A DNA stretch of 64,000 nt from Agaricus subrufescens. Taxonomy: Eukaryota; Basidiomycota; Agaricomycetes; Agaricales; Agaricaceae. A program made the translations under genes and the position numbers. Where the stretch lies: positions 558,001-622,000 of the forward strand of contig CM057065.1 in assembly GCA_029945375.1 (NCBI GenBank). Direction: 5' to 3'. The notes under the pieces were generated by a model. It did no database searches, was not told where the DNA came from, and was given only the letters and a program-made list of their open reading frames with translations. This document shows positions 31,655 through 59,281 of this stretch, piece by piece. The first letter of the stretch is position 1; every line of letters begins with the position of its first letter.

Positions 31655-32560
31655 TTACTTCAACAAAGGAGTACACCCACTCCTCAGAGGATGTTCATGA
31701 GAGCGAGGTTGATTCAATAACGAAGGGCCGACAAGTTCCCCATACAGTACCACCATACTCCTCACGCTCCTCTCGCGAGAGTCTACAACAAAACCAATAG
31801 GCCCACTTCGATTCACCATCTTCTGTCTCACTCCAACAAAATGAACTTCTAAATAGCAGTGTCCAGCTGACGGCAATAAAATTGGAACAACATAATTCAA
31901 GTTTCGTGTCTTCAATGCCTCGAGTTGTTGGAGCCGATTAGAGCAGAAGGTTCACGTCAATGTCCCTGTGGACGCAGGAACATCAGCTCTTTTACAAAAC
32001 AATCAGTCATTCTTGATTCTTCCCTCTTTCGCATCTGTTTACCCATCCATATTATACAACAACGTTCATTCTATGGGTTGTTTCAGACACAAGTTACACT
32101 CGATCCTCTACAAGGCAAATACTATAGGTGAGAAAGTTCGTTAATGTTGAGCTGTATCTTCGCAGGGTTATATGTAAAAGCGGTAACCGCCTTGAGGGGA
32201 AATTATCTGAGTACGCCGTGTATCATGCATTGATGGCGTCTACACTTATCCTTAGATTTAGGTTCAGCCTCACAAACGGCGAAGAGATAGATCTGATGAA
32301 GAACTGACGAGCACCTAAGCCACGTAACTGATTCAGCGGAAAACCCAAAAAAAGGGGTTAAAGCGGTGAGGACATGGATGCAGAAATCACTCTGCTATGG
32401 AATTAGTCTATTCCGGTTACATTCCGTCAATGGCCCGTTGATAATACTCATTCGGATTCCACCAGTGTTTCAGTCAATCCCTCCGTCAAAGGGCCAGCTA
32501 CGCAGGGTCGTCTCTAGTGGTATGACCATTTATGAGGGCGCCACCACTGCATAGTGGTCA
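31655..32560 (-). pseudogene. Decayed NACHT-family 3' end (fragment H)
   Basis: The segment near 31750-31910 translates to NLNYVVPILLPSAGHCYLEVHFVG, the same module as AVPIMFTSS..CxxEVGFVD in the cluster genes. After a frameshift it continues DGESKWAYWF. Near 32160-32260 and 32310-32480 the nucleotide sequence still aligns with the small D-S-R exon and with the 3' end of the main exon of copy A (for example AGCCACGTAACTGATTCAG against AGTCACGTAACTCTCTCAG). No open frame remains. This is a dead copy on the same strand as copy A. Confidence 0.65.
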
Positions 32561-33066
32561 CCTCTAGGATCAATGCACGATGAGCATGCAGCTCTTGAAC
32601 TTCGTGCGGAATTTCATCCCTTTCCTAGTGCATTTAGTTCAGTGATATGGTTTTTGATGCCTAGCTGTAGATGTCGACAGAGCCAGGTTAGTCGTTAAGC
32701 CACTACTAGTAATCATGTAATCATATGAAGAGCTCCAAGCCGACGACAGCCCCCGAGCCTTCCAGTCTCTTTCACCCAATGTAACGCAATTGGCAATTTT
32801 AGGGCACCGGCTATTACCGAGATTTACAAGAGGATGAAATAAACCTTCGCTGACAGAAGTGCTTAGTTGGGAGTGCGGTGATTAGTGGTGGTCCGCGCTC
32901 GTGCCACAAGCGCAGACTCAGCTGAGGATTTCTCGGAGGTGATGGGTAACAAGCGGCAAGCATGACTATACATGTACAAATACGAGTTCATTGGCCGAGA
33001 AAATTCTCCGTCCAGTTGAGTACTCGCTCCTCAAAGTTCAGCAAGAAAATTCAATTTTAATGTAGA

Positions 33067-33410
33067 TCAAAGGATCATGTAACCATACAACCATCTCAAA
33101 CCTTCTACTCTCCTCGAACGGGATTGCGCATCAAAACCCGGGCCGGTATGTCCACTCCGAGATACCATCCTGTGGATCAGCAAACCGAACCTCCACGCAA
33201 CAGTCCCAGCCAAGATGAACAAAATCAGGACTCTGGGCTTGAGTTTTCCAACTTTCCAACTGTTGTTCAGTACGTTGGAGACAATGACAGCTTCTGTCAT
33301 AAAACGCGGTTCTCTCCATTTCTGATTCTTTCCTTCTTCCCACTCGCCTTCTCTTCCATGCTGCATAACACCTATTCAATAGATGGTAGCAAATGACGTT
33401 CTGCTAATTG
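33067..33410 (-). pseudogene. Orphan C-terminal exon of the NACHT family (fragment G)
   Basis: The frame reads RTAFYDRSCHCLQRTEQQLE, then SPDFVHLGWDCCVEVRFADPQDGISEWTY, then stops after RPGF. This is the CxxC/EWTYW module alone (CHC replaces CxxC). No NACHT exon lies upstream before copy A's own 3' end. It is probably a remnant of a copy whose body was lost. Confidence 0.65.
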
Positions 33411-33652
33411 GCCGAAGCGCAGGCATCGAGGGACGTGGAGCACAAATGGGGCTTTCAGAATCGTGGTAGAGAGGCAAACGGAAAGAACAGTAGTCGAGCA
33501 CCGACATAAGGAACCCTGAGCAAGTGATCAAGCACAACGTGTGTGTTGATACGTGGCACAAAGGACGTTTTTCATCAAATCGGCGTTAAGGTATCTATCT
33601 GCTAGGGAACTAATTGACGGGTATATCATATAGCACTATTGTAGTTCAAACT

Positions 33653-36420
33653 TCATTCGGTGAGTCGACACCAAAACCAATATCTCCACTCCGACATACC
33701 ATCCTTCTCGTCAACAAACCGAACCTCTACACAACAACTCCCAGTAGAAGTAAACAAAATTGGAACAGCGCGATCCGGAGTCCGGATCTTCAAGCCCCCG
33801 AGTTGGTCTGCAAGTCGACTATAGCAGCAAGCACAGTCATCCACACTGAAAGAAGTGACCCAGTTACAGTCCTTTCCCTCTTCTCCTTCGCCTATGCGTT
33901 GATGCTGCGCAATACTGTTTCAGTGCATGCGCTCAGGAAGAGACAATTCGCTTACAGTGCAGGTTATATCCCAAGGATCTGGTAGATTCGTAACAGCCGT
34001 AGCGGGACGATAAAAATGCAGCTTCGCATTTGAGAATATCGAGGAAACGTCAATTGCCCTGAGAGGTATTTTTTCGATTATACCACGCATCGTGAATTCC
34101 TGATACCGAGATTCATCCTTATATATAATATCAGCCACACAAACTCGAAGAAGAAACGAATCTCATGGAGAACTCACAAACACCAAGTCACGTAACTCTC
34201 TCAGTGGAAAATAGCCATAATAGGTGCGGAACTGAGCGGTCAAGAGATGAATGCAGAAGACATTCTGAAAGTTGGGATCTCCGCGTTGTATCCCATAAAC
34301 AACCTCCCCGATAGCCAGTTTGTACAGATTCAGTTTCGTTCTGTGTGAATTCCAACTAACATCCTTATCATCCAGCCAAGTGAACGAAATCTTGTCTCCC
34401 GAACCCGGCGGGCTACGCGCGAGGACACCACCATATGCCTCTAAATCTATTCCTCCAAGGTTTATGCCACCGGGAGCCTCCTTTAAAACTCTGAGCGCAC
34501 ACTGAGTTTTCAGCTGCTGGGCTTCATAGACAATATCAGGGGAGAATCCGGATCGGGAGAAATCGGATATATAGTCCATGAAGGATTTATGGAAAGGCTT
34601 CAATGGCTCCAAATGGGCTTTATCGCGTCTAGGAACACGCAAAACAGAACACAGATAATCAACAGCGGCATAAGCATCATCGCGTGATATGTTCAACCAA
34701 TTGCATAGAACGATAAAGTCTCCACTAGGTCCGGACCAAATGCGCCGTGGCAATGCCGAATCCCAACTTGATGACAACGCCAACAATAGTTTTCGAGTAT
34801 TTGCTGCAATTTTGGGTGGAGTTTTGGACAAGATCCTAGCGTACAAGGCGTCGAGAAGAGCCATTGGCTGATCCTTGCGAGGGATTCCAGTCAGATCATG
34901 GCTTTCAACAACGTCCAAAACATCGGAGAGTTGGGAGGCAGGGCATCCAATTCTCGGGTCGTCGACATATCGAATGGCTGTATGTGCAAATTCAAATAGA
35001 CCGCCTGAAGCGTGAGCGAGTTTCCATAAATCGTGTTCGGCAGGCCAACGTGAATCAAGTGTATATGACGCCTTGCTGATTTCTCCTAGCGCATCGCGAA
35101 GATAACGCTCAACATTGGCTTGAGCGTCATCAAAGTCTACCAAAATTTCTTCCTTTTCATACACTGGGATGACTTCGGGCCTGGAGAAGAAAGCCGTGAG
35201 ATGTGGTTCAGGCCGGCTGGCAATGAGCCATACGATGGGCGAAGAAGGGTACAAGAGGCAGAATTCAGAGATAAGGCAAAGGAGCTCAATCTGGGTGCGT
35301 GGGCTGCTGCATTCGTCAAGACCATTAATGATGATTGAGACACGGCCAATAGACTTCAGTTGAGAGTGATGAGCGAAGGGCTCAACGATGAACTTTTGGA
35401 ACTGGATCGGCATTGGGGACTGGAGGAGTGACGGGTCATCATCGATAGCGCCCTGGATGATCTGGCGGTATGGCTCAGATTTGACAGCAAGCTGGTAGGT
35501 AAGTGTCATGATAGCTTTAGTTCCATCATTACGCCCGTTGACAGAAAAGAAGATTGATGCGTTGGAGGTCCCGGGGAGTTTGGGAGACTCGATGACGTTT
35601 TGCATGATGGCTGACTTTCCAACTCCATCCACACCAACTATCCAGCGCATTCTCACACTGGAACCGCCACACCGGGAGACAAACTCAATGCATCGTCTCA
35701 ACACGGCCAAGCGTGTTCCGGGATGACATCGTGGAGGGGAGTCTCGAGCTGGAGAGTCGAATGCTGCTCCAGGTATTGTTCCCTTTGCCAATTCACGCAT
35801 GACTAATAGAGATGACAATAAGCACAGGAAATGAAACGGGGACAGAACTTACACTGGTTTGGGTAGAGGGTGACGTACATGACTAGTGGAATGATGTAGT
35901 CAGCATAAGCGAATAGTACGCGAAGGGCACACTCCTCACCGCTACCCACACCCACATCGAGGAAGTTGCTATCAACCGAAAAACCATGGAATATGTCTCG
36001 ATTCTTGTGCTCCTGCGGTGGTAGATACTCATCAGAACATCGAAGTCACAGTTGAAAATAAAATAAGCGAGAGAGGCTCACACTCTGTGATTCGAGAATA
36101 GGTGATTGTTTTGGAGGCACTGTGAGAGCGGGGATAGTGGAGCCCATGGTACGAGGAAGACACGGAGGATAAGGAGGCTTCGGGGTAACTGGATCTTCGG
36201 ACTTGAGCACCAATGGAGTGGTTGAAGGCGGGGGAGAAGTGCCTCCAAACTCGTCCTTATCATGACTAGCATAGCCAGAGAACTGACGAGAAGGGTCCAG
36301 GTATGAGGGGTGAGCGACGTCTATATCATTTCGAGGGTCTGCAGGAGTCGACTTCAGTAAAGGTGAAAGTAGAGGATGGACACGTAGAAGTCGATGATGG
36401 TGGAATGAAGAGCCAGGCAT
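33653..36420 (-). CDS. NACHT/STAND protein, cluster copy A (intact)
   Basis: The start MPGSSFHHHRLLRV is at 36420. A Pro/Ser-rich first exon to about 36082 and small exons near 35950-36015 and 35850-35880 lead to the main exon 34178-35802 (541 codons). It ends with exons 33956-34117 and 33653-33904. The main exon has the Agaricomycete NACHT entrance SPPRCHPGTR, Walker A GVDGVGKS, an SVNGRNDGTKAI block, Walker B SIIINGLDEC, sensor VWLIASRPEPHL, and a winged-helix-like half with FHKSFMDYI. The last exons encode DESRYQEFTMRGIIEKIP and the C-terminal module DDCACC...AVPILFTSTGSCCVEVRFVDEKDGMSEWRYWFW. No WD40, ankyrin or TPR repeats follow, so the protein is short for a STAND receptor. NACHT proteins switch between ADP- and ATP-bound states to trigger signalling. 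Fungal relatives act in allorecognition and defence. That role is inference here. Confidence 0.85.
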
Positions 36421-36508
36421 TAAGGAGTACCATGAGATGAGAGAGCTAAGGACGAACCGTGGCTATGACGTGCTCACGGTCAGACGCTGGGGAACAGCCT
36501 TTGAAAGG

Positions 36509-36516
36509 TATTTATA
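36509..36516 (-). promoter_or_regulatory. TATA box of copy A
   Basis: TATAAATA on the minus strand, about 90 bases upstream of the copy A start at 36420. Confidence 0.5.
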
Positions 36517-36960: not shown

Positions 36961-37010
36961 TCGCATGATGGCTGAAATGAACTTTGCTCTTGCCTGCGAC
37001 CTGCCCGAGT

Positions 37011-39906
37011 ATGCCTGACTTCAGCTTCCGCCTTTCTCGCCTCCTACGTCCTCACCGCTCCTCACGCTCGGATTCATCCTCAGCAAAAGCTGGCAATGAC
37101 CCTCATTCCCCCCATCCTACTCTGTCCTCCCGTCCTTCATCTAGGCAAGGCGCTCTAGAGCAGGGCAAATATATCGACACAGGTACGCCTTGATCCATCA
37201 TTCCTAGAGACCTAGCGTGTCTCAATAACTCATCAGACCACCTTGATGTGGGCGTGACACGGGGAGATTCCACTCGTCAACCGTCACCAGCATCGCCTCC
37301 AATCACATCAATCGTGACGGCCAAATCTATCTCCCCAGATCCCGCTGGTCGTACTGCTGTTTCAGTCTCACCTGGGTCTAATACGACGGAGTCAACACAA
37401 GCCCTGCATCCATTGGATTCACTTGCGACGTCCTTGCAGCAATCTTCGGTTTTTCAACGACAACAAGTCAGTCCCTCTTAAACTTTCACCTGGAAAAATG
37501 ATGCTGAACCATTCGAAGCTACTTTCATCCAAAGATTTTGCGTCATCGCCATCACGGGATCAGGGCCAAGGGGTATTTAAAAACGCAAGTAATTTCTCTG
37601 TTGTAGGGTCAAATTTGATTGAAAATAGCAGTAAGACGTATTGACTTTGCTTGAGTGATTCCCGATATGAACTTACAACCTTGTTAGTCACAAATAACAT
37701 CAACGTCTCGAACCAATGTAAGCAACATACCTAGTTTGTGACCACTGTTGATCGCTACTCTGCTAGTCATGAAAGACCTCCTGAAGGAAACAATTCCCGG
37801 CGCGGCGGCTGATTCCTCGGCTCGCGATCCACCCCCGAGATGTCATCCCGGGACTCGTTTGGAAATCCTTGAACGATGCCTGCATTTCATTGCCCACTGC
37901 GAGGGAAGCAAAAAGACGCGCTGGGTCGTCGGCGCTGCAGGAGTGGGAAAGTCTGCCATCATGCAAAGCGTCACCGAGTCTCCCAAGCTTTCAGTAGATC
38001 ATCGCGCGTCGGTCTTCCTTTCTATCAATGGGCGCGACGAGGGAACAAAGGCCATCATTACACTTTCTTATCAGTTTGCCGCCAAATCGCAGTCATATCG
38101 TCGGGTCATTGAGGATGAGATCAACCGTGACCCATCCCTCCTTCAGTCGTCGATGGCTGTCCAATTCGAGAGATTCATTGTTCAACCATTCATTTACAAC
38201 TCTGATACAAGGTCTACTGGTCGTGTGCTGATTATTGTTGACGGCCTCGACGAGTGCAAGGACATACGTACGCAGGTCGAGCTCCTCCGCCTTATCTCTG
38301 GTTTCTGTATCTCATATCCATCATCACCTATCGTATGGCTCATTGCCAGCCGCCCTGAGCCACACATCGTTTCTCTCTTCGCTGAACCCGACGTTGTACC
38401 AGCATATGAGAAGGAGGAGATTGCGGTAGACTCTAATGAAGGTCGAGCAGATGTTGAACGATGCCTTCGCCACGAGCTGACTAAGATTGGAAGGGCGTCC
38501 TCACTTGACGCACAATGGCCCGATGAACGGCATTTGTGGAAGTTGGCGGATGCTGCAGGCGGGCTATTTGCTTATGCGCAGACTGTCGTCAGATACATTG
38601 GCGACTTGAATGTCTGCGACCCTGCCTCACAGCTCATTGACGTCTTGAATGTCATTGATGAGCTCCCATTGTCCGAGCTGTCCCGAGACGAGCATCCGAT
38701 GGCTCTACTCGATGCACTATATGCCCGAATCTTATCCAATGTTCCGCCGAGAATCATGATCAATGCTCGAAAACTTTTATTGGCGCTAGCATCGGGTTGG
38801 GATCTGACCATGGGCCCGGGGGGGGGGGCATTGTTCTATGCAACTGGTTAGGAATGACTGCGAATGAAGCTTATACTGCTCTCAATCGCCTCCGTGCGGT
38901 TTTGGATTTTCCCGAACGTCATGAAGCACATCAGCGAGCACCCGAACCTTTCCACAAATCTTTCATCGACTATATACACAGGTCCGAATTTTCCAGTGAT
39001 ATCACGCTTGAAGCTCGACAAATCATGGTTGACTGTGCATTGAGAGTATTGAAGGAGGCCCCCAATGGCTATGACTTTGACACGCCCGATGACTCTTTTT
39101 ATTACGGTGTACTGGCTCCCTGTAGTGGCGCTGGAGATCAGCTTTCGTTTTCGTGGCCGGCTCAGGACGGGATTTACTGGAATGATGCACAAACACGACA
39201 GAGTATGTATCACCTAACAATTGGACAAGTCGTGCAAGGCATAGAACGCGCGGATCCAGTGTTCCAGACTAAACCCTACATCGAGCTCTTGACTACTCGG
39301 TTTAACTTTCACAATTCACGCTTTCCCTTCAATAAATTGTGCGATGTGATGTTTGTGAGTGTCGCATGATATTTTCACTCCATATTTGTCACTGAAATGA
39401 TACATCAGGATACATCTCGACGCGATGAATTCTTACAGCACGGCATACTGAAGCAAATACCCGCCAACAAAATCCCCATTTCCAATCATTATAGCTTATT
39501 TACTAGTAAGATACGCTTCCACCGTCCCGTTACAGCAACGGTTCTACCTGATGTATGGGAATCATCCTGTGAGGTGAGTGAAACGTTAGCATTTCCAAAC
39601 ACCCATTGATTTTGTACTCTACAGCACAAACGGGTCAGCCAGTGCAAACAAGAAGAGGAGCGGAATTGGACAACTACCTTTCAAAGGACGAAGTGTGCTT
39701 TCTGCTCTGATAGGCTTAGACACCAACTGAAAAGTTTCGTTGCCCATTCTCCGGATTACGCTGTTCCGATTATGTTCACATCGTCAGATATCTGTTGGAT
39801 CGAAGTTGGATTCGTCGATCCGGGGGACGGTGTGTCAGAGTGGACATACTGGTTGCCGCTTCGCCTTAACCGGTCACAACGCAAGAAGCTCGGGAGTACA
39901 ATATAA
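37011..39906 (+). pseudogene. NACHT/STAND gene, cluster copy B (frameshift at an 11-G run)
   Basis: It starts MPDFSFRLSRLLRPHRSSRS at 37011. Exon 1 ends at GACACAG|GTACG and exon 2 starts at DHLDVGVTRG. After the intron at GTCAGTCC comes the motif exon VFKNASNFSVVGSNLIENSS, the micro-exon TNNINVSNQ (about 37684-37712) and the main exon from 37766 (MKDLLKETIPGAA). Walker A is GAAGVGKS, Walker B LIIVDGLDEC, sensor WLIASRPEPH. At 38818-38828 a run of 11 G breaks the frame: the first frame reads WDLTMGPGGGALFY and then stops, the second resumes at IVLCNWLGMTANEAY. About ten bases present in copy D are missing here. The 3' exons (39409 onward, and the final exon to TAA at 39904-39906 with CAFC...EWTYW) are intact. 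Either this is a pseudogene, or the G run is a sequencing or assembly error. Confidence 0.8.
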
Positions 39907-40852: not shown

Positions 40853-43748
40853 TCACACAATGCTCCCATACTTTTGACGGACTTCCAACGGGACTGTGCA
40901 CCAAAACCAATAAGTCCATTCCGACACCCCATCCTCCAGATCAACAAATTGAACCTCTACACAACACTCCCTAGTCGACGTAAACAAGATAAAGCTAGTA
41001 TGACCAAGAGAACGAGCTTTCAAACTTTTAAATTGGCGTCGGAGTTGTGCAGAGCATGGAGCACAATCTTCTCCATGAAACCAGGTTATCCAGTCTTGAT
41101 CTGCTCCTTCTTCCCGCTCCTTCCCGTTCATGCTGTACAACTAAATTTCAATCAGCGGCTTTGAAGTGTGAGTATAGTACTTACTTGGCAAGTTGAAATC
41201 CACGGATCGGGTGAGTGTGCCTCTGCCACGGCAGGACGACGGAAATGCAACTTGACATCTGTAAAGGAACGTGGGTTATTCATGACCCCAAGAGATGTTT
41301 GTCTGAGTATTCCCCGGTTTAAGAATTCAGGGCGGCGAGAGGCATCCTGGGTGGGATGAACGTGGAAGAACAGATTCCGGAAGACTCACAAACACTAAAT
41401 CGCAGTACTCATAATGAGGAAAAGCAGACCAATATTGCTCAAACCGGGCTTTCAAAAGGCGAATGCAAAATTCGCTTTGGAAGGTCGGATCTTCACGTTC
41501 AACCCCGTCTACAAACACTCCAATTGCTAACTGGTAGATCATCAACCTCGTACGGTGGTCATTCCAGCCAGCTGCTTCCTCAATCCGCCAAGTCAGCGAA
41601 ATCTTGTCTCCAGTACCGGGGCCGCGCAACAAGACGCCATGCAGAAAAATATAATCCACGCCACCGAAATTGATTCCATCAGGAGCCTCATTCAAAATTC
41701 TGAATGCACATTGCGTTGCGAGTTGCCGAGCTTCATCTTGCATATCGGAGAAAAAATTGGATCGGGTAGAGTCAGATATAAAGTCGATGAATGATTTATT
41801 TCAGGGCTCGAGCGCTTCATTGTAAGCTTGGTCGCGCCGAGGGATATCGAACACAGAATGAAGATGATTGAGAGCGGCGTAAGCTTCATCAGGTGTTATA
41901 CCTAACCAGTTGTATAAGTCAACAAAGCTTGGACTAATGACATACATCAGAGCCCGATCCCAACGCGACGCCAATGCCAACAGAAGTTATCGTGTAATGA
42001 CCATGATTTTTGGAGAAACTTTCGAGAGAATTCGTGCATACAAGGCATCAAGTAGAGCCATCGGATGCTCCTCCGGTGAGAGGTGGCTCATGGGATGCTC
42101 GTCAATAACATGCAGAACATCAGAGAGCTGCGAGACCGGGCTTCCGACCGTCGAGTCACCAATATATCTGACGACAGTCTGTGCATATGCACATAGCCCG
42201 CCGGCTGCTTTCGCGATACTCCAAATGTGTCGTTCCTCAGGCCAGAGCGGATCGAGTGACCCTGACGCGTCTTTAATCTCCATCAATTGGTCACGAAGGA
42301 ACCGTTCAACGTCGGCACGAGCTTCGTCAGAATTTACAGGAATCTCCTCCTTCTCATACACGGGGATGACGTTGCGTTTAGAGAAGAAGGAAGTGATGTG
42401 TGATTCGGGGCGGCTGGCAATGAGCCAGACTAAGGGTGAGGAAGGATGCTTGATGCAGAGATCGGATATGAGATGCAGGAGGTCCTGTTGCGTGCGTGGA
42501 TTGGCGCATTCATCAAGGCCATCAATGACGACCAGGACACGACCGGCAGAGTTCAATTGTGGGTAGCATATAAAGGGTTCGACAATTAACTTGTTGAACT
42601 GCTTTGTCATGGGTGATTGAAGAAGTGACGGATCACGAACGATCTCCGGCTCAATGATTTGACGATAGGTGTTAGATTTGGCCGCAAACTGATAGGAAAG
42701 TGTAGTCACAGCTTTTGTTCCATCATGACGCCCATTGATAGAAAAGAAAACCGATGCATGGTAGTTCACCGCCAGTTTGGAAGACTCTGTAACATTTTGC
42801 ATGACAGCTGACTTTCCCACTCCAGCTGCACCGACCACTCAACGTATCTTTTTCACGCCATGACAGTTGTGAATGAAGGCTATGCATCGTCCAAGAACAG
42901 CCAAGCGGGTCCCAGGATGGCATCGCGGAGGGGGGTCACGAGCAGAAGAATCGGATGCTGCGCCAGGAATAGTCTCCTTGAGAAGCTTCTCCATAACTGC
43001 CAGGAATGAGGATCAGTCGAGGCGATGAAAGAATGATTTTGATTGCTTACATTGACTTGAGGTCGTGCTTAGGTTGGTGTTCGTAATAGCGACTAGCAGT
43101 AATGCTGTCAGTAGTGGCAAACAAATAATGCAGTGGTATATCCCTTACTGTTGCCCTGGTTGCTATAGACAAAGTTTCCCATGGCAGAAACATTATGGGC
43201 TTGATTAAACATTCCTTGGTTCTGAACCTGCCGCTGTGAAAGATTGGACCTAGAGTTTCTGCTTTTTCAATTGCGATTGAGATACACAAGGAAGCTCACG
43301 TTTACAGGTTCAGGATTCAACGGCTGTCGGGGCATTGTAAGTTTACATGTTGCACGCCGCGGTTCGATATTATTTTGGGCTTGAATAATGGTAGCAGAGC
43401 TGGAAGAAGACGAAAAGTGTGTAGGCTGATCGACATCAGGAGTTACTGATGTGGTGTCTGTGAAGGTTGGCTACTAGAGGGGTTTGCAACCTTATCCATA
43501 GACAGGCAGCCCGCAGGATTCTCAGGTACAACTGGATGCTCGGAATCTGATTGAAAAGGAGTGGCAGTGGCCGCATACACCGCCTGCTCTAACAATGAGC
43601 ATGGGTGCAGTGCAGGAGAAGTGGTAGTGCCGGGTGAGCGGAGAACGACTGCATCATTTGGAGAGCGTGATAAAGATGGCTGGGGTGAACATGAGCGCGA
43701 TCGGCGAAAACGCAAGAGTTGAGAAAGTCGGAGCGAAAATCCTGGCAT
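40853..43748 (-). pseudogene. NACHT/STAND gene, cluster copy C (three in-frame stops)
   Basis: It starts MPGFSLRLSQLLRFRRSRS at 43748, followed by a Ser/Pro-rich exon, the motif exon GMFNQAHNVSAMGNFVYSNQGN near 43190-43250, a micro-exon TNTNLSTTSSQ, and the main exon to about 41390. Then come DASRRPEFLNRGILRQ near 41180-41345 and the final exon ending at 40853 with DCAPC...EWTYWFW. Relative to its relatives the main exon has a stop in place of Trp just before VVGAAGVGKS (about 42840), a stop in place of the first Lys of RKLLLAL (about 41985) and a stop in EPFHKSF (about 41805). The parts between are well preserved (Walker A GAAGVGKS, Walker B LVVIDGLDEC), so inactivation is recent. One of the changes is a G-to-A type and the others are not, so repeat-induced point mutation is not needed to explain them. 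Confidence 0.8.
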
Positions 43749-44084
43749 TGGATGGGTGAGGGTGGAAGGCAGACCCACCCAGCATGTTAGCTATAATTGA
43801 CACAGTAGACGCTCAGACGAAGGCACCGTTACTCGCTCTTTTGAGAATAGCCGGTCATGATGTGAGGAGCAAATACAAGGGAGGTACTTGCTTGTCATTG
43901 GCCATTATGTCACCCATCATCGTGTGACCTCCCCTCTGACTCTCCTCCTCCTGGGGCCTAGACTGAGCCCTTTTTTTTTTGCACCAAAGGGCAGACACAT
44001 AACTGGTTTTGTCTCTCCCTTATCTCTCTGCTATATCAGAGAAGCCCCCACCTTAAAAACTGGTAGGGCTACAGCAAATACGAG
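43749..44084. other. Upstream of copy C; possible left border of the USP-PHD segment
   Basis: It holds the presumed promoter of copy C and an 11-T run near 43970. No clear TATA box of the type seen at copies A, B and E was found. Somewhere in this stretch NACHT-cluster sequence should change to the segment that carries the USP-PHD gene. I could not find a terminal inverted repeat. Confidence 0.3.
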
Positions 44085-44480
44085 GGGCCCGCGCGCGGAC
44101 TAGTCTTGCACGCGGGCTGCACGCGGGCTGCACGCGGACGGACGCGGGCAGGACGCGGGCTCACTGATGTGACCTGTTACAGGACCATGAGAAAACATCA
44201 ATGTAGCGGTACCGAGACGCTACGTACACATCATAGGTATGCATGCTAAGTCAAGTCCAAGTGCTCGAGGTCTCTTCCCAGTCATTGTAGAGGGTCGAGA
44301 ATAGTCTGAAATTACGACGCGGACAAGCGAGGATAGCCCGCGGATACACGCGGGATGGGCGCGGACTGCCGAGGGCTTTTCCATTTAGATGCGGACACTC
44401 GAGGAACAGACGCGGACATGCTAGACATTCGCGCGGGGCAGCCGCGGGCGTGCGAGGGGACCCACTCAAATACCACTGTA
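44085..44480. repeat. GC-rich array of short CGCGGGC/CGCGGAC repeats
   Basis: Around 15 copies of the core CGCGG occur in variants GCACGCGGGCT, GGACGCGGGC, ACACGCGGGA, GACGCGGACA and their inverse GCCCGCGGAT, in two clusters (44085-44160 and 44315-44480). The rest of the window has nothing comparable. Clusters of short GC-rich repeats near an element end are common in fungal and plant DNA transposons, where they bind the transposase. That is inference here. Confidence 0.6.
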
Positions 44481-44581
44481 ACGGCGACGCGGGGCAGGTT
44501 CAGAGACAAGACTGTATACAAGCATCACTTGCAATCAAATATGGGTGGCTAAGGTGGCGCAATGTATGATACTGAGTTAAC

Positions 44582-44624
44582 TGTATAGTGCTGTATAGTT
44601 GTATACTACTGTATACTATACCCT
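44582..44624. repeat. AT-rich imperfect palindrome downstream of the USP-PHD gene
   Basis: Repeats of GTATAGT and its inverse ACTATAC, arranged as TGTATAGTGCTGTATAGT then GTATACTACTGTATACTATAC, can fold into a hairpin. It lies about 30 bases past the stop codon of the minus-strand gene and may take part in 3'-end formation. Confidence 0.4.
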
Positions 44625-44655
44625 CAAATGACTATTGCTGCGTCCTTGTCCGATA

Positions 44656-47600: not shown

Positions 47601-48296
47601 TGTATTGTGAATAAAGGGTGAAGAGAAGGCGAGAGTTCTATATGTGGCCCATCGGTACTCTTCCCTCCGCTGCACTTATGGATGTCGCAATATAGTGGCA
47701 GGAAATATGGAACAATAGCCCCATCGTCACCCAAAGTCTTTGCTGCGCGCATTCGACGAAATAGTGAGGACAACCAAGCCTGGTAATTGTGTCAACGCTT
47801 ATTCCAAGACACCAGATAAATTCAAACTCACAAATACCATGTCTGGTGAGACGAGGTCTTGAATGATTTTCTCCCGCAACAGAGTTTTCCGAACAAGATC
47901 CCGCTGAGCAGTCAGAGGCGTGCTCAACGTAGACTCTTGTTTAGTGCTCTTTTTTAGACTGTGAATCTGTTGTATAGCATCGAATATGGGGCCCATCTGC
48001 TCATCATGTATCACACTGGTTGCAACGTCTTCGAAGTCTTCCCAACCCCGATCGAGAGCTTGATTTAGTAGGGTCAAGCTGACATCAAGCCAGCAAGAAT
48101 TCTTTTGCCATGGGAAGTAGATAGAACCAAAAGTTTCATTGAGGGTAACCCTCGCTTCTTTGGCCTGTTTTGTGATAGGCTTCTTTCCCACCAACTTGGC
48201 CATTGTGTCCGGAGCACGGCCATCATTGACATAGGGCTTGCCACGATTAGCTAATGGATCGCGATGTGGATGAGTACGTCCATGTTCAAGGGCCAT
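44656..48296 (-). CDS. USP-like cysteine protease and PHD-finger protein, 1140 residues
   Basis: Five exons (47838-48296, 46077-47779, 45749-46019, 45052-45702, 44656-44994) total 3423 bases in one frame. Exon 1 holds a ubiquitin-specific-protease-like Cys box (SIYFPWQKNSCWLDVSLTLL, about residues 60-80, Cys in NSCWLD). Exon 2 supplies an interrupted catalytic core with a possible His box GNHFTARFYN and YEYDDMK (about 340-370), then an acidic and Pro-rich linker, a basic AT-hook-like RKPRKPRKPRP, and a PHD finger CRCG...LLQCSGCKQLSHRAC...WRCYRC (about 680-715). Exons 3-4 encode a Trp-rich region (YPVRLLGYD...CWNVQWWRGC) of unknown fold. The tail has repeated VKEE and VKDE (ψ-K-x-E, SUMO-site-like). 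Together these suggest a chromatin reader with deubiquitinase-like activity. I do not know the exact family. Similar genes are often repeated in Agaricomycete genomes, which suggests a link to a mobile element. It lies between broken NACHT copies C and D. Confidence 0.7.
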
Positions 48297-48407
48297 TCGC
48301 CTTCCACGTGATTCCGATCCATAATGACTTTTCTGGCCCTCTACGAAACGTGGTCAGTGGTCAGCTCCATGTTCCCAGCTCCTGATTTAGCACGTACTTC
48401 GAGCAGC

Positions 48408-50310
48408 CACGGTCTTCCTTTCTATCAATGGGCGCGACGAGGGAACAAAGACCATCATTACACTTTCTTATCAGTTTGCCGCCAAATCACAGTCATATCG
48501 TTGGGTTATTGAGGATGAGATCAATCGTGACCCATCCCTCCTTCAGTCATCGATGGCTGTCCAATTTGAAAGGTTCATTGTACAACCATTCATTTACAAC
48601 TCGGATACAAGCTCTACTGGTCGTGTGCTGATCATTGTTGACGGCCTTGACGAGTGCAAGGACATACGTACCCAGGTCGAGCTCCTCCGTCTTATCTCTG
48701 GTTTCTGCACATCTTATCCATCGTCACCCATCGCATGGCTCATTGCCAGCCGTCCTGAACCACATATCATCTCTTTCTTCGCTAGACCCGAAGTTTCACC
48801 AACTTACGAGAAGGAGGAAATTGCTGTTGACTCTAACGAAGCACGTGCAGATGTGGAACGATTCCTTCGCTATGAGTTGGCTGAGATTGGGAGAGCATCA
48901 AATTCACTCGATCCGTGTTGGCCCGATGAACAGCAGTTGTGGAAGCTAGCGAACGCTGCCGGCGGGCTATTCGCTTATGCGCAGACTGTTGTCAGATACA
49001 TTAGTGACTCAAATGTTTGCGACCCAGCCTCACAGCTCGTCGACGTCTTGAATGTCATTGATGAACTTCCATTGTCCCACCTGTCCCAAGAAGATCATCC
49101 GATGGCTTTACTCGATGCACTATATGCCCGAGTCTTATCAAACGTTCCACCGAGGATCATGTTCAATGCTCGAAAACTCTTATTAGCGGTATCATCAGGT
49201 TGGGATCCGACCACGGGGGGGTGGTACAATCTCATTGTTCTATGCAACTGGTTAGGAATGACTGCGAATGAAGCTTATACTGCTCTCAATCGCCTCCGTG
49301 CGGTTTTGGATTTTCCCGAACGTCATGAAGCACATCAGCGAGCACCCGAACCTTTCCACAAATCTTTCATCGACTATCTACACAGGTCCGAATTTTCCAG
49401 TGATATCACGCTCGAAGCTCAACAAATCATGGTTGACTGTGCATTGAGAGTATTGAAGGAGGCCCCCAATGGCTATGACTTTGACACGCCCGATGACTCT
49501 TTTTATTACGGTGTACTGGCTCCCTGTAGTGGCGCTGGAGATCAGCTTTCGTTTTCGTGGCCGGCTCAGGACGGGATTGACTGGGATGATGCACAAACAC
49601 GACAGATCATGTATCACCTAGCAATTGGACAAGTCGTGCAAGGCATAGAACGCGCGGATCCAGTGTTCCAGACTAAACCCTACATCGAGCTCTTGACTAC
49701 TCGGTTTAACTTTCACAATCCACGCTTTCCCTTCAATAAATTGTGCGATGTGATGTTTGTGAGTGTCGCATGATATTTTCACTCCATATTTGTCACTGAA
49801 ATGATACATCAGGATACATCTCGACGCGATGAATTCTTACAGCACGGCATACTGAAGCAAATACCCGCCAACAAAATCCCCATTTCCAATCATTATAGCT
49901 TATTTACTAGTAAGATACGCTTCCACCGTCCCGTTACAGCAACGGTTCTACCTGATGTATGGGAATCATCTTGTAAGGTGAGTGAAACGTTAGCATTTCC
50001 AAACACCCATTGATTTTGTACTCTACAGCACAAACGGGACAGCCAGTGCAAACAAGAAGAGGAGCGGAATTGGACAACTACCTTTCAAAGGGCGAAGTGT
50101 ACTTTCTGCTCTGATAGGCTTAGACACCAACTGAAAAGTTTCGTTGCCCATTCTCCGGATTACGCTGTTCCGATTATGTTCACATCGTCAGATATCTGTT
50201 GGATCGAAGTTGGATTCGTCGATCCGGAGGACGGTGTGTCAGAGTGGACATATTGGTTGCCACTTCGCCTGTATTGGTCGGAACGTAAGAAGCTTGGCAG
50301 TACAATATAA
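48408..50310 (+). pseudogene. NACHT/STAND gene, cluster copy D (5' half missing)
   Basis: Homology to copy B starts abruptly at about 48408 with VFLSINGRDEGTK. The N-terminal exons, the PPPRCHPGTR entrance and Walker A are absent. Upstream in frame there is a TAG within 10 codons. Downstream the frame is open through Walker B LIIVDGLDEC, sensor WLIASRPEPH, WDPTTGGWYNLIVLCNW (where copy B is broken), and ends FVSVA at 49773 next to the splice donor. The 3' exons (from 49813, and the last exon to TAA at 50308-50310 with CTFC...EWTYW) are intact. The break abuts the segment carrying the USP-PHD gene. Without a P-loop the product could not bind ATP, so it is at best a regulatory fragment. Confidence 0.8.
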
Positions 50311-51136: not shown

Positions 51137-52227
51137 TCGCAGGCGGCTCGAAGATAGACATACAGGAGTCTAATATGCAAGGTCTTAGGTCTGACAAGGA
51201 TGTCGTGATCGTCAAATGCCGGAATAACATGTGACACTCGAATGGTCTTTCATCAACTTGACCTATGCCTAAATTCCTTTTACGCCTTCTTAAGGGTCTG
51301 AAAAACCTCACCATTCATGACGGTCTGAATCCCCAAAGCCACCCCAAGCAGACATCCAAGATGTTGCGGTCGCCTCTCCCTTTTCCGGGCCATATTTTGG
51401 CAAGCTAGAGCAGGACCTGCTCGCTGCAACAAGCACTGTGCATCCTCTATCTCTGATATGAATAAAAATGTCCACTGGGATGCTTCACGACAACAGAGTG
51501 TTGAATAATTTAAGCCAACTCCCGCAAGCTTCTTACTCAGCCAGAGAGCGATGAACGTTCTCGAAGCCAACATTCCGCTGCTGCGGAACACTGAGAATTC
51601 TATTCCCTATAGCCAGTCGACTTCCCATGCATTTCTGTTCATGAAAACTCTATTCAATCGCAGCAGTCCCCACCATCGCAAAATCGGTCACCACGTCTCC
51701 TCATAGTTTTACACCATCCGTTAGATCCTCGACCTCCGGGGAAATGAAGAAGCTGAAAAACACAAAGCGACCCCTCCCCCAACGAATACTCACTACAAGC
51801 GAAATATTATGGCTCAGGCACGCTCAATCATGCTCAGAACTTTGCCGCAGGGGGGAACTTTATTGATATTCTGGTGCCAGTGATGTAGGAAATGGTGAGT
51901 AGTATTTCTAGGTGATCGGCATATATTGAATATATCTAGTCACTTTAACGACTCGGAGTACTGTGAATACTTTGAGGACATGTAATAAACACTGCTTTTT
52001 CACTACCACTATTGATCACCATATTCTGCAGTCGTGGAGAAACTTATCTCAGGGAGTCAGTTCAATGTAGATGATCCGAATGCAAGGCACGATAGTAGTA
52101 TTATCAGCTGTATAGTGAATCAGTTTCACTGGCAGCCCTCCACAATCATGCAACATAAGCGGTTTCGAGATTGTGAGACGTGATTATCATCATTTTTGAC
52201 GAAAACAACTTGCTAGTACATGAGATA
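51137..52227. other. Intergenic between solo LTR and copy E
   Basis: It continues the copy B/D downstream flank to about 51240. Near 52055-52150 it matches the flank behind copy F (TTCAATGTAGATGATCCGAATG against TTCAAGGTGGACGATCCAAATG near 56573), so E and F were duplicated with their 3' flanks. A 103-codon minus-strand ORF at 51280-51591 has no recognisable domain. Confidence 0.5.
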
Positions 52228-55141
52228 TTATATGGCACTGCCTAGTTCCTTGCGTCTGTCGGCGCTAAGGTAAAGCCACAACCAGTATGTCCACTCGGAC
52301 GTACCATCCTCCGGGTCAACAAATCCAACTTCAATGGAACAATAATACGCTGAAGTGAACATGATTGGAACAGCGTGATTCGGAAACTCAGTAATGCGAC
52401 GTTCCAACTGGCGTTTAAGCCTGTCAAAGCAGAAAGTGCATTCATCGTGTTTAAAGGCAGTCACCCAATCCCGTTCCTTTCCTTCAGTGTATTGGCCTTC
52501 TCGCAGATGCTATACGCACAAATTCAATAGGCGCCTTTAGACAAAAATGCGTCACTCACTGTGCAAGACAATTCCCATGGATCAGGTAGAAGAGTTTTTG
52601 TATCGGGACGACGGAACCGCATTTTAATAATACAATCGACGTCAATTTTGGAAATATTGATTGCCTTGGTGGGTATTTGCTTGAGGATACTGCATTCCAT
52701 TAATTCTTCGCGCCGAGATCTATCCTGGTGTATGATTTCAGTCGCAGAAGTGCAGAACAGGTGTATCATGGGCCACTTACAAAAACCAAGTCGCACAATT
52801 CATTGAAAGGGAACTCTGTATTTTGAATATCAAACCGAGTGGTCAAGAGCTCGATGCAGGGCACAGTCTGGAACACCGGATCCCCACGTTTTATCCCCTG
52901 TACAACTTCTCCAATGGCTAACTGGTACATGCTCTGTCGCGTTCTTACATCGTTCCAGTCAGTTCCACCCCGAGCGAGCCACGACAATGAAATCTTGTCG
53001 CCGGCATCACTATGGCGACCAAGTATGCCATAATAATAAGACATATCGGACGTATCACAGTCAAAGCCATTAGGAGCCTCCTTCAATACTCTGAATGTAT
53101 ATTGGAGCATCATTTGACGAGCTTCAAGCCTGATATCGGTGGAGAATCCAGACCTGTGTAGGTGGTCGAAGAAAGATTTGTGGAAAGGTTCGGGTGCTCT
53201 CTTATGTGCTTCGTGGCGCTCAGGGAAATCCAATACAGCGCGGAGGCGATTGAGAGCTGTGTAAACCTCGTCGGCGGTCATCGCCAACCAATTGCACAGG
53301 ACAATGAGATTCTTTCCCCTTCCTGCAGCCAAATCCCACCCTGATGTCAGTGCCAATAAGAGTTTTCGAGCGTTGACCATGATTTTGGGTGGGATATTAG
53401 ATAGAATGCGGGCATACAGTGCATCAAGAAGTGCCATTGGATGCTTTTCTCGGGACAGATCAGATATTGGAAGCTCATCGATAACATTCAAGACGTCAGA
53501 GAGTTGTGAGGCCGGGTCTCCAACATTTGAGTCGCCAATGTATCTAACGACGGTCTGAGCATAGGCGAATAGCCCACCCGCAGCATTCGTCAATTTCCAC
53601 AAATGGGTTTCATCAGGCCAACGTGGATCAAGTGAGTTAGATGCTTTCCCGATATCAGCCAGCTCGTGGCGAAGGAATTTTTCTACGTCTGCACGAGCCT
53701 CATCGGAATCTACAGCAATCTCCTCCTTCTCATATGCTGGCATGACCTCAGGCCTAGCTAAGAATGCGATGATGTGTGGCTCAGGGCGGCTAGCAATGAG
53801 CCATATGACGGGCGACGATGGATATGAGATGCAGAAACTTGAGATAAGACGGAGGAGCTCGACCTGGGTACGTGTTTCCTTGCACTCGTCGAGCCCGTCA
53901 ACAATGATCAGGATGCGATCGGCAGAGTGTAGGTGCGTATTGTGAATGAATGTTTGAATGATGAATCTCTCGAATTGAACAGCCATCGATGACTGAAGGA
54001 GGGATGGGTCACGGTTGATCTCATCCTCGATGACCTGGCGATATGACTGCGATTTGGCGGCAAATTGGTAGGAGAGCGTGATGATAGTTTTTGTCCCCTC
54101 ATTGCGCCCGTTGATAGAGAGGAAGACTGACGCGTGATAAGTCACAGAAAGCTTGGGAGACTCGGTGACGCTCTGCATGATAGCAGACTTTCCTACTCCG
54201 GCAGCCCCGACGACCCAGCGCATCTTTTGGACGCCCTCGCAGTGTGCAATAAATTCCAGGCATCGTTCGAGAATTGCTAAGCGGGTTCCAGGATGACATC
54301 TCGGGGGTGGATCGCGAGCCGAGGAATCAGATGCAGCTCCAAGGATCGTTTCCTTCAGCAAATCTTTCATGACTAACAGATCGACCGTCAATAGTGGTAA
54401 AGAAACGGGTAAACTGCCTACAGTTGTTTGGATTATTGAAATTGTTAAAGTTATTCATTAATGAGACTAGTAAAAAATAGTGGTCAAAACGGGCATATGA
54501 GTGTGCGGAGAGTAAGCGTTACCATTACTGCTCTCAAAGAAGCTCGGCCCTGTCATAGTAAAGTTATGCGCATTGCTGAAGATTTCCGGGCTTTGATGCT
54601 GTGGTAGCTGAAGATCCTTGCCCGGTGGTGCCTTTAGATGTTTCAACAAAAGCATTCGCGGCTTATATATCAATAAGGGACTCACCCTTTGTCGTTCAAA
54701 CACTGAAGATTGTTGTGAAGGTATCGCAAGTGCGAGTGACCGTAATGGATGTTGGCTCGAGTCTGAAGAAGTGGAAAGATGCGGGGAATGTGTATGTGGC
54801 CGGGAAATAGAATTTTGGGTGCTGAGTGAAGGTGTTGGGTTCAAATTAATAGCATTCGTCGGTGTGGCTGGTCGCGAAACGTGAGAGGGTTGACAAACAC
54901 CGACGCGGTCAGTTGTTAAGCTACCAGGAGTGGTTGAATGAGAAGTAGCAGTGGCGATGCCCTTTGCCTGCGGTGGGGTACTGTTTGTGGATGAAGGAGG
55001 AGATGACTCCAAAGCGGGGGTCGTGCCACGATTTGAGGAATCAGAGGCGACATCGTTACAAGGATTTGATGAGGATGAACGCGAGTGTGATGAGCGGCCA
55101 GGACGTAGGAATCGAGGAAGGTGAAAGCCAAAGCCAGGCAT
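52228..55141 (-). CDS. NACHT/STAND protein, cluster copy E (intact)
   Basis: It starts MPGFGFHLPRFLRPGRSSHS at 55141. A long Ser/Pro/Thr-rich exon follows, then, after an intron at GTGAGTCCC, the motif exon SPEIFSNAHNFTMTGPSFFESSN, an Asn-rich micro-exon NNFNNFNNPNN (about 54423-54466) and the main exon 52781-54372 (530 codons). Then come 52560-52724 (DRSRREELMECSILKQIP) and 52228-52509 (DECTFCFDRL...AVPIMFTSAYYCSIEVGFVDPEDGTSEWTYWLW). In the main exon Walker A GAAGVGKS is at about residues 55-62, Walker B LIIVDGLDEC near 155-165, sensor WLIASRPEPH near 190, and a winged-helix-like second half contains FHKSFFDHL. All frames are open and the core promoter is conserved with copy B, so this is the best candidate for a working gene. 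It is a STAND ATPase without the usual repeat sensor domain. Allorecognition or defence is inferred from the family. Confidence 0.87.
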
Positions 55142-55177
55142 CGGGCTGGTCGAGGGCGGAGGCAAAGCGCACTCGAC

Positions 55178-55212
55178 CTGCCCATCAACGTGCAGATGCT
55201 AGCTATTTATGG
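55178..55212 (-). promoter_or_regulatory. Core promoter of copy E (TATA plus conserved block)
   Basis: On the minus strand CCATAAATAG is followed by GCATCTGCACGTTG, about 65 bases before the start codon at 55141. It matches the block in front of copy B. Confidence 0.55.
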
Positions 55213-55239
55213 CGCACTGCCTTCTGTTCCGCCAAATGC

Positions 55240-56290: not shown

Positions 56291-56728
56291 AGTATATAGC
56301 ACCAACCATCTAACATTCCCGTTTTCGATTACTGCTGTCCGAGAGCAAGTCTATGCGTCATTCTAACATACACGAAGGAGTTCCAGGCTATAACACCGAT
56401 AGGAGGGTCGCGTGGTGTAGAATCAAACATTCCTCTAGCTATTGTCTTCTCTAGAAATCTCTCAATGGCTGGATGAAAAGTCGCTCACATAGTATATATA
56501 TGAGTAGAGATGTATTGTAAGCTGAGGCAACGACGCGAGGTAAATGGCGCATTCATGTGTCGGGACTTCATTCAAGGTGGACGATCCAAATGAGACGCGA
56601 TAGCGAAACAATCGGACGGATTTTGAGCCGCCTACATCGAATGCCCTCTACAAAACCACACAACATAAACAGCGTCAAAGTCTGACCTTACAAGTATCAA
56701 TGAGATCCATTCAGTAGCGCATTATACA

Positions 56729-59281
56729 TTAAATAGTACTCCCAAGTTTCATACGTTCATCCTGGTCCAGAAGAAGCCACAGCCAATATGTCCATTCCGA
56801 GACACCATCCTCTGGATCAACAAATCCAACTTCGACGTAACAGTCTTTCGATGAAGTGAACATGATGGGAACAGTATGATCTGGAAAGCGAGTAATCAAA
56901 CTTTCCAAATGGCGTGTGAACCTATCAGAGCAGAAAGTGCATCCACGCCATTCAAAAGCGGTCTCCCAGCTCTGTTCCCTTCCTTGGCTATATTGGCCTT
57001 CGCGTTCATGCTGTATAATACACGTTTTAAATGGGGATCAGGAAATGCAAACAACTCACTGACCTTACAAGATGATTCCCATGCATCTGGTAAAACCGTT
57101 GTCATAATGGGACGACGCAAACACATCCTGATATGGGGATCGCTATCAATGTTGGGAGCGCTGATTGCCTTGACAGGTATTTGTTTGATTATGCCGTGCG
57201 TCACATATTCATGGCATCTAGAATTATCCTGGTGTATCATTTCTGTCACAGAGGTATAGAGCAAACATATTATGAGATACCCACAAACACCAAGTTGCCG
57301 ATCTTATTGAAGGGAAAGTTGCGATTGTGGACGATAAACTGAGTGATCAAGAGCTCGATATAAGGTTTGGTCTGGAACACCGGATCTCCACGTTCTATGC
57401 CTTGCACAACTTGCCCAATTGCTAGCTGATACATGCTGTGGCGTGTTCTTGCATCATTCCAGTCAATTCCATCCTTGGCTGGCCACGAAAACGAAATTTG
57501 GTCTCCAGTGCGACTTCGGCGAACCAGTATGCCGTAACGGTAAGACAAATCGGACGTATCGCAGTCATTGCCATTGGGAGCCTCCTTCAGTACTCTCAAC
57601 GCACATTCAATCATGATTTGTCGAGCTTCAAGCTTGGTATTGCTAGAGAACCTGGACCTGTGTATATAGTCGAAGAAAGATTTGTGGAAAGGTTTGGGAG
57701 TACGCCTATGTGCTTCATGACGCTCGGGAAAATCCAAACCAGCGCGGAGGCGATTGAGAGCAGTATAAGCTTCATTCGCGGTCATCCCTAACCAGTTGCA
57801 CAGGACGATCAAGTTGTTTCCATTGCCCGATGCAAAATCCCACTCTGACGCTGATGCCAATAAGATTTTTCTAGCATTTATCATGATCCTGGGCGGAACA
57901 TTGGATAAGATTCGAGCATATAATGCATCAAGTAAGGCCATCGGATGGTCTTCTCGTGGCAGCTCGGACAATGGAAGCTCATCAATGACATTCAAGACGT
58001 CAATGAGCTGTGAGGCAGGGTCGCAAACATTGGAGTCGCCGATATATCTGACGACAGCCTGGGCATAAGCAAATAGCCCGCCGGCAGCATTCGCCAGTTT
58101 CCACAACTGCTGTTCATCAGGCCAACATGAATCGAGTGAATTTGATGCTCTCCCGATCTCAGCCAGCTCGTGGCGAAGAAATCGTTCCACATCAGCGCGA
58201 GCCTCGTTAGAGTCAACAGCAATCTCCTCCTTCTCATATGCTGGCGTGACCTCGGATTTGGCAAAGAAGGATAGGATGTGTGGTTCAGGGCGGCTGGCAA
58301 TGAGCCATACAATTGGTGACGAGGGATGCAAGATGCAGAAACTAGAGATAAGACGGAGGAGCTCGACTTGGGTACGTGTTTCCTTGCATTCGTCAAGGCC
58401 ATCAATAATGATGAGCACGCGACCAGCAGAGTTTACGTCAGGGTTGTGAATAAATGGCTGAATGATGAATTTCTCGAATTGGACAGTCATTGATGATTGA
58501 AGAAGGGATGGATCACGAGTGATCTCATCCTCGATAATCCAACGATATGACTGTGATTTAGCGGCAAATTGGTAGGAAAGTGTGATGATTTTTTTTGCCC
58601 CATCGTTCCGTCCATTGATAGAAAGGAACACCGACGCGTAATAATTCACTGAGAGCTTGGGAGACTCGATGACGCTCTGCATAATGGCAGACTTTCCTAC
58701 ACCTGCAGCCCCGACGACCCAGCACATCTTTTGGACTCCCTCGCAGTGGGCAATGAAATACAGGCATCGTTCGAGAATTTCCAAACGAGTTCCGGGGTGA
58801 CATCTTGGAGGTGGATCACGAGCAGAGGAGTCAGATGCTGCTCCAAGTATCGTCTCTTTCAGAAGTTTCTCCATGACTACCCGAGTTAGGATTAATAGCG
58901 TTCACAAAATGAGGTACGTAACGTACAGCGGTTTGGATTGTTAAAATTGTTGAAGTAATTCGCAAATGCAACTAAAAGAGATATCATTCAAATCAACATA
59001 CGACCGCATGAAGATTATAGTTCTTACTGCTCCCTTGATTGCCCTCAATAAAGCTTGGGCCTGCCATAGCAAAATTGTGTGCGTTGTTGAGTATTTCTGG
59101 ACTCCGGTGGTGCAATGGCAGAAGTTCCTTGCTAGGAAGTGCCTTTGAACGTCTCAACATAATCATTCATAGGTTCAAGGTTGATAAGGGGCCCACCGTT
59201 TGTTGTTCAAGCGAAGATTGTTGTGAAGGGTTCGTGGATGAACATAATAGACGCTGGGATCGCGTTGAGTCTGAAGGATTA
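56729..59281 (-). pseudogene. NACHT/STAND gene, cluster copy F (first exon cut off at a copia LTR)
   Basis: The main exon (about 57285-58857) is fully open: PPPRCHPGTR, Walker A GAAGVGKS, Walker B LIIIDGLDEC, WLIASRPEPH, NLIVLCNWLGM, FHKSFFDYI. 3' exons are DNSRCHEYVTHGIIKQIP (about 57065-57228) and the last exon to TAA at 56729-56731, with CTFC...AVPIMFTSS-like DCYVEVGFVDPEDGVSEWTYWLW. Upstream, the micro-exon NYFNNFNNPNR (about 58928-58965) and the motif exon SPEILNNAHNFAMAGPSFIEGNQGS (59035-59130) are present, but the conserved MPxF start is gone. Homology to copy E ends near 59281, where LTR-associated sequence begins. The body could still be expressed from an internal ATG such as MEKLLKETI at about 58874, or from the LTR, but the native N-terminus is lost. 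Confidence 0.75.

Follow-up and report, generated by a model that had tools for sequence, protein, structure and literature searches.

A probable NLR super-cluster in Agaricus subrufescens that turns over by duplication, recombination and mobile-element insertion

Which genes of a crowded receptor locus in the mushroom Agaricus subrufescens (Agaricaceae) are still open, and what has broken the others? The question is raised by a stretch of 64,000 nucleotides, called the window here, which corresponds to positions 558,001–622,000 of contig CM057065.1 (C9) in the assembly GCA_029945375.1 (44.65 Mb, 44 contigs). Six related NACHT (STAND/NLR) genes, A to F, and at least two relics lie at 31.7–59.3 kb of the window. 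The locus was compared in three versions, namely C9 (the window), C6 and C24, the last being a short unplaced contig of 76 kb; C2, C11 and similar names also denote contigs of this assembly. We consider, at a probability of about 0.85 for the explanation as a whole, that one fungal NLR family forms a very large, lineage-specific super-cluster here, of which the window covers a small section. The comparison supports a turnover of this cluster in which copies are duplicated, exchange sequence by ectopic recombination or conversion, and are hit by mobile elements; the main exon is under purifying selection.

Self-BLASTN of the window recovered A to F at 66–91% DNA identity, with E-values down to 0 and on both strands, as a preliminary description of this DNA had reported. 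The limits given there for the cluster (31,655–59,281) were too narrow, the family running past both. When the genome was searched with the E protein, 68 matches with E ≤ 1e-10 were obtained, 51 of 1,428 candidates having been scored. At least 51 of the matches listed were to the main exon, with at least 20 on C9, 15 on C6, 8 on C2, 6 on C24, and 1 each on C11 and C5. The 20 or more members listed on C9 span 459,064–1,234,719, about 776 kb. Window genes D, E and F are present among the matches listed and A, B and C are absent, so that the counts are lower bounds. A genome search with PF05729 gave at least 88 NACHT matches (88 of 712 candidates scored), which is also a lower bound, the window copies not being among them. 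A DNA search with window positions 20,000–32,000 listed seven weaker matches on C14, C7, C2 and C1; it overlooked the C6 copy, which is 99.84% identical from 27,112 on, and is thus unusable as evidence of absence.

In a FastTree analysis of 80 sequences, from which the two D fragments were left out, 25 of the 30 genome copies fell into one clade (support 1.0) together with four metagenome proteins. This clade includes B, E, F, G and X, an additional gene of C24 described below, and has no A. bisporus members. C and A/H24 form separate lineages of the family, the positions of which are weakly supported. The best-scoring named homologue of the main exon is an A. bisporus protein (63% identity over 98%), and partial homologues reach 69%. 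By this identity and by the clade of 25 copies, the window family is set apart from the A. bisporus NACHT proteins.

Gene A (33,653–36,420, minus strand; end points counted on the sequence) was modelled as an 824-amino-acid (aa) NLR with six exons by a splice model. Gene E (52,228–55,141, minus strand) gave a complete NLR model with exons at 55,141–54,523, 54,466–54,422, 54,372–52,781, 52,724–52,560 and 52,509–52,228. E is open over these five exons, or over six if an optional in-frame intron of 54 nucleotides (54,685–54,632) is used, and encodes 900 aa with this intron retained. The claim that A and E are open throughout was borne out for every modelled exon of both genes, with GT–AG introns.

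Gene F had been described as open but beheaded. Its downstream part (56,729–59,289, minus strand) is indeed open within the window, but the head still exists: exon 1 is cut at 59,289/59,290 by a Ty1/copia element, and the remainder of the exon follows from C9:622,558, beyond the window end. The element, identified by Pfam matches, its ends and its long terminal repeats (LTRs), occupies 59,290–64,000 on the minus strand and extends to C9:622,557 (position 64,557), 5,268 bp in all. Its assignment to Ty1/copia is based on the LTRs, a 5-bp target-site duplication, AGATG, with one copy at 59,285–59,289 and the second after the element from C9:622,558, and the gag–integrase–reverse transcriptase order (gag_2, gag_pre-integrs, rve below the cut-off, and RVT_2). 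The C6 copy of the element is also 5,268 bp, with LTRs identical at 357 of 357 positions and a single 1,486-aa frame; the 257 bases compared of the second C9 LTR are identical to the C6 element. The identical LTRs indicate that the insertion was recent. On C24 the site is empty, and F could be modelled there as a complete gene of 882 aa.

Gene B (37,011–39,906, plus strand) appears to be a chimaera, B-type in its 5' part and D-type in its 3' part, with the join at a G-run at ~38,780–38,850. The frameshift previously ascribed to B is located here, within the main exon. Windowed identity between window B and C24 B was 99.5–100% from 36,900 to ~38,700, whereas over 38,900–39,700 window B was 97.5–99.5% identical to D and 78–87% identical to C24 B; beyond 39,700 its identity to D drops to 94–82%. 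The identity switch inside B coincides with the G-run where the frame is lost. B on C6 has a longer G-run and is likewise out of frame, and B on C24 is open with 860 aa. Apparently, window B arose when B and a D-like copy underwent ectopic recombination or conversion. Since the frame is lost at the join, the window B rather than the C24 B is probably the recombinant.

Gene C (40,853–43,748, minus strand; end points counted on the sequence) has the three in-frame stops reported before, at reference codons 51, 335 and 395 of the main exon, and in addition a frame break in the last exon. Gene D is present as its 3' part only (48,410–50,310, plus strand), starting abruptly at 48,410. The missing 5' half, already recognized in the preliminary description, has been replaced by a mobile segment of 4,344 bp (44,066–48,409, minus strand). 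The segment fills exactly the interval from the end of the C region to the start of D, where C24 has the 5' part of D, and ~1.23 kb of C24 including this part is missing there. It is 99.93% identical to C11:422,916–427,259 and carries a 572-aa open reading frame (ORF) with weak PHD/UCH resemblance as well as smaller ORFs. The main protein of the segment gave 26 match rows in the genome, including 100%-scored copies on C6, C9 and C11. Terminal inverted repeats were not found in the outer 200 bases of the segment, and no target duplication was seen.

The other two versions place these losses in context. C6 is 99.84% identical to window positions 27,112–64,000 (45 mismatches and one 15-bp gap) and 99.72% identical to 7,110–17,111. 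On C24 the copies are in the same order as on C9 (A+B, 98.0% identity; C, 94.2%; D, 98.2%; E–F, 99.0%), but the B–C interval is ~13.9 kb compared with 0.9 kb on C9 and contains two extra genes, a second B-type gene (B'') and the F-like gene X. The exons of X read open, its last intron having been placed by inspection. A retroelement interrupts B''; it shows reverse-transcriptase and RNase-H-type matches and split direct repeats, and we read it as a DIRS/Ngaro type, its integrase-type match being weak and below the cut-off. D on C24 (D') keeps its 5' part but is interrupted by an insertion flanked by a 16-bp target duplication. This insertion is LINE-like, being judged a 5'-truncated long interspersed nuclear element because it ends in poly-T/A and because of the appearance of its 397-aa frame, not from a database. 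C on C24 is broken in a partly different way, by one stop shared with window C and a frame change. In the parts of C24 examined, A', B', X, E', F' and G' (G' in the main exon only) are open.

Gene content therefore differs between C9/C6 and C24, and the set of genes that are open changes from one version of the locus to another. Variation of the kind that the preliminary description sought among strains already exists between the versions in this one assembly. Birth and death by repeated duplication, which had also been proposed, is supported by the window–C24 comparison, in which duplication, recombination and transposon insertion are all represented.

To what extent are the remaining open copies maintained? 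The ratio of nonsynonymous to synonymous substitution (dN/dS) in the main exon was calculated by NG86 between the window and C24 and for 15 paralog pairs. Between the two versions, E showed one synonymous and zero amino-acid changes in 526 codons, and dN/dS was 0.08 for A, 0.18 for F, 0.48 for B, 0.65 for C and 0.81 for D. Twelve paralog pairs gave 0.14–0.26. Values of 0.32–0.50 came from the remaining three pairs, one joining B24 to the C9 662-kb copy and two joining C9 and C6 copies. The corresponding ratio of proportions (pN/pS), taken over 15 copies in 17 windows of 30 codons, was 0.10–0.29 in 14 windows and 0.34–0.44 in the three that cover codons 391–480. Diversifying selection was not found in the main exon, either in the 15 paralog pairs or in the 17 windows, all of which were below 1. 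The dN/dS check recommended earlier, run here between copies and versions, thus points to purifying and not diversifying selection, with constraint on A, E and F.

This constraint bears on the view of the cluster as chiefly a graveyard of decaying genes, kept by transposon-driven duplication and with little function left. Four of the six window copies are broken, relics persist, and four different mobile insertions were found in NLR copies across the versions compared, all of which would suit such a picture. However, dN/dS of A, E and F is well below 1 both between versions and between paralogs, and six frames are open in the examined parts of C24. We regard a mere graveyard as improbable.

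As for the relics themselves, which the preliminary description lists without coordinates, G and H exceeded shuffled controls, while I, the third in that description, was weak. Relic G (31,743–32,499, minus strand), a decayed 3' end comprising the main-exon end and the C-terminal exons, was detected by 74 tblastn matches from 43 of 108 family queries (best E 7e-13), and its best rows scored 36.6–39.7 bits compared with at most 28.9 in 20 shuffles. Relic H (33,086–33,363, minus strand), consisting of decayed C-terminal exons, gave 55 tblastn matches from 34 of 108 queries, with a best score of 59.7 bits compared with a maximum of 26.2 in 20 shuffles. For I there are two candidate places. In the region of 51.2–52.2 kb the best row (51,330–51,530) scored 27.7 bits against 25.0 in shuffles; the interval 51,769–51,864 was rejected, as its 25.8 bits are about the shuffle level of 25.0. 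The other candidate, a possible weak relic of a main-exon start, was found by tblastn at 56,401–56,481 on the minus strand (E 0.002; 31.6 bits compared with 26.2 in shuffles).

Whether the versions are alleles or paralogous blocks was considered from their flanks and from the rest of the assembly. A block of ~336 kb seems to recur on two contigs, C9:565,110–901,543 and C6:844,001–1,180,470, with 99.72–99.84% identity in the two stretches compared; beyond these stretches the spacing of protein matches agrees, and part of the block pairs with C2 by NLR scores. The block may be a segmental duplication, a haplotype mis-join or a mis-assembly. C24 and C6 might be recent segmental duplications on other chromosomes, that is, paralogous blocks within one haploid genome rather than versions from different nuclei, to which we give a little less than an even chance. 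The assembly looks essentially haploid: 14 MCM matches fell at six loci, none of them doubled, and at least 40 DEAD-box matches listed included one equal-scoring pair (35 of 127 candidates scored). These counts speak against a simply diploid assembly. The contigs C9 and C6 are both several megabases long; besides their high identity where compared, their NLRs are spaced alike over ~258 kb, and the C9 DEAD genes among the matches listed are without a C6 partner. The NLRs to the left of the block are not paired at matching spacing, the C9 512-kb copy grouping with the C6 723-kb copy. In contrast, C24 is short and unplaced and has PIG-X to the left of its NLRs as on C9, and its genes A to F show the same order, 94–99% identity and structural differences, as expected of a leftover haplotig; mis-joins in a complex repeat region could also place one block on two contigs. 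The conclusions on turnover hold for alleles and paralogs alike, because they require only related versions of one locus, given correct assembly of the junctions.

The PIG-X/PBN1 gene (17,477–18,106, minus strand) is the left landmark common to C9, C6 and C24. Over 71–76% of the query it is 64% identical to its homologue in A. bisporus, 51% to that in Macrolepiota and 41% to that in Leucocoprinus; like the homologues of the NLR main exon, these indicate the Agaricaceae. Four further, more diverged PIG-X copies, some with stops, are located near NLRs at C9:523,964, C9:462,898, C6:795,364 and C6:729,500, which suggests that NLR and PIG-X units were probably duplicated together, a gene of housekeeping type having apparently travelled with the receptors. 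In A. bisporus, the PIG-X homologue and the NLR homologues P0025, P0031, P0033, P0034 and P0045 are each on a contig of 1,953,713 bases, and this match suggests that the linkage of PIG-X and NLRs is old. Near the left end of the window, part of a more distant NLR (3–1,121, plus strand; ~30% identical to E), outside the limits first given for the cluster, is followed by a CFA20-domain ORF at 1,510–2,046. Imperfect direct repeats of ~80% identity with spacings near 680 and 520 bp were also observed at 14,531–15,825.

What kind of protein do the open genes encode? NPHP3_N was above the Pfam cut-off in all five window copies scanned (A, C, D, E and F), and NACHT in C, E and F only. Walker motifs were compared in 32 sequences, and both D fragments were without Walker A. 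The NACHT/NPHP3_N domain together with Walker A and B identifies the family as STAND NLRs. An AlphaFold model of the A. bisporus relative P0031 (30 sequences) had a mean predicted local distance difference test score (pLDDT) of 71.5 and a predicted template modelling score (pTM) of 0.64. It showed a disordered stretch at residues 1–197 (pLDDT under 50), a NACHT/winged-helix core and a beta-rich C-terminus at ~742–862. Foldseek matched this model in the PDB to ORC/Cdc6, CED-4, NRC2-4 and Sr35 with E of 1e-4 or better, although the query TM-scores were only 0.16–0.28; the best 50 of 1,216 fold matches were mostly ORC/AAA+ and NLR proteins. The model thus has the AAA+/winged-helix fold of CED-4 and plant resistosomes, with low TM-scores. 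A sequence search of solved structures gave nothing at E 0.01. The C-terminal domain received no Pfam name, and Pfam did not find WD40, ANK or TPR repeats, in the three full-length relatives scanned. Since only 52% of fungal NLRs have an annotated C-terminal domain according to the excerpted text of PMC4986451, the absence of repeats does not exclude membership of the NLRs.

Ahead of the NACHT domain, a Pro/Ser-rich exon 1 was read by eye in A, B (C24), C, E and F, which agrees with the low pLDDT of P0031 in indicating a proline-rich disordered N-terminus. An amyloid-like motif, NAHNFTMTGPSF, is present in E and kept only loosely in A; an alignment of 30 A. bisporus proteins shows this N-terminal motif stretch as conserved in its consensus. 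These relatives share with the window family the order of a MPxFSFxxPRFLRxxRS-like start, Pro/Ser-rich disorder, a GMFxxAxNFxVxGxxF-like motif, NACHT and the C-terminal domain. In excerpts of PMC9815663, NLR05-type motifs are regarded as a basidiomycotal variety or homologue of HRAM, and 10 A. bisporus sequences combine NLR05 with NLR_PRDR, a name that we take to mean a disordered region rich in proline. Judged by position and look rather than by profile, the N-terminal motif of the family probably corresponds to this NLR05 type, and the 10 sequences are presumably the relatives discussed here.

In our reading, the product of each intact gene begins with a short basic motif at the start of the disordered Pro/Ser-rich N-terminus, continues with the amyloid-like motif and the NACHT ATPase with its winged-helix region, and ends with a helical linker and the small beta-rich C-terminal domain. 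From these features a mode of action can be proposed tentatively. As in other NLRs, the C-terminal part would bind a cellular or non-self cue, which would let the NACHT domain bind nucleotide and oligomerise. The N-terminal motifs clustered in this way would nucleate an effector response, for example regulated cell death, that serves defence or the recognition of non-self. We regard signalling by N-terminal clustering after NACHT oligomerisation as plausible, with the balance somewhat against it.

Defence and recognition are different roles. In animals, plants and bacteria, NLRs act as receptors in defence, and the tree indicates that the present family predates the split from A. bisporus. The family might serve to ward off bacteria, viruses or mobile elements and not to tell fungal individuals apart, and we see an even chance of this; turnover alone does not separate the two roles. 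An allorecognition role is possible, and the locus may be called a reasonable candidate for it but not more. It is conceivable, although we consider it unlikely, that the super-cluster is a somatic-incompatibility complex of the mushroom, in which each nuclear version would have its own working set of NLRs. Duplication would create the members of such sets, mobile elements and intragenic recombination would silence them, and cells would be distinguished by their intact receptors. In the excerpted account of PMC8229728, basidiomycete somatic incompatibility is described as poorly understood and no such receptor gene is named. A literature search, with most subscription journals outside its scope, gave no title or abstract describing this locus.

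Several points weigh against the explanation favoured here, a constrained NLR super-cluster that turns over by identifiable events. First, gene A is open and constrained, but the first Asp of its Walker B is replaced by Asn in both versions: the motif at 35,300–35,350 reads NGLDE instead of DGLDE, and Asn is also found on C24. Of the 32 sequences compared, the remaining 30 keep this Asp, and the 30 A. bisporus proteins show no variation at the position. An open frame is thus no proof of ATPase competence. Second, a six-frame search of the genome for HeLo/HeLo-like partners (PF14479 and PF17111) gave 0 matches at E 0.1; the search was made without intron handling, and introns may hide them. Third, dN/dS does not provide a clean contrast between open and broken copies, because the divergent 3' half of B raises its value and the C24 copy of B has an open frame. 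Fourth, window B is only probably the recombinant version, as judged from the frameshift, and both B versions also match D at 93–98% over ~38,010–38,300. Finally, C24 and C6 could be paralogous segments instead of alleles.

The cause of several losses can be read directly at this locus, and open forms of F and B occur within the same assembly. F, B, X, B'' and D are thereby named as candidates for population genotyping, and it becomes testable at one locus which genes govern the recognition of non-self in mushrooms.

Among known systems, HET-E and HET-D belong to the fungal NLRs with NACHT–WD40/ANK/TPR architecture. The window family resembles them in the NACHT core and differs in having a small beta-rich C-terminal domain, without repeats in the three full-length relatives. 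Another known system is HET-S/NWD2 of Podospora, with amyloid-signalling NLRs. It and the window family have an amyloid-like motif ahead of NACHT in common, and by analogy they may work alike; the E motif, however, is located ~190 residues in, behind a disordered stretch, and neither WD40 repeats nor a HeLo partner was found in the searches described above. HET-S/NWD2 is also discussed in PMC9815663. In the excerpts of Dyrka 2014 (PMC4986451), and in van der Nest 2014 as cited there, birth and death, strain polymorphism and strain-specific gain and loss of fungal NLRs had already been argued from gene counts and trees, and the general birth-and-death pattern seen here is alike. What is new is the event-level record and the comparison of versions: in contrast to the families of Dyrka 2014 as given in these excerpts, single events are resolved here to the base: there are insertions marked by target duplications or by an empty site, and within one gene the identity changes.

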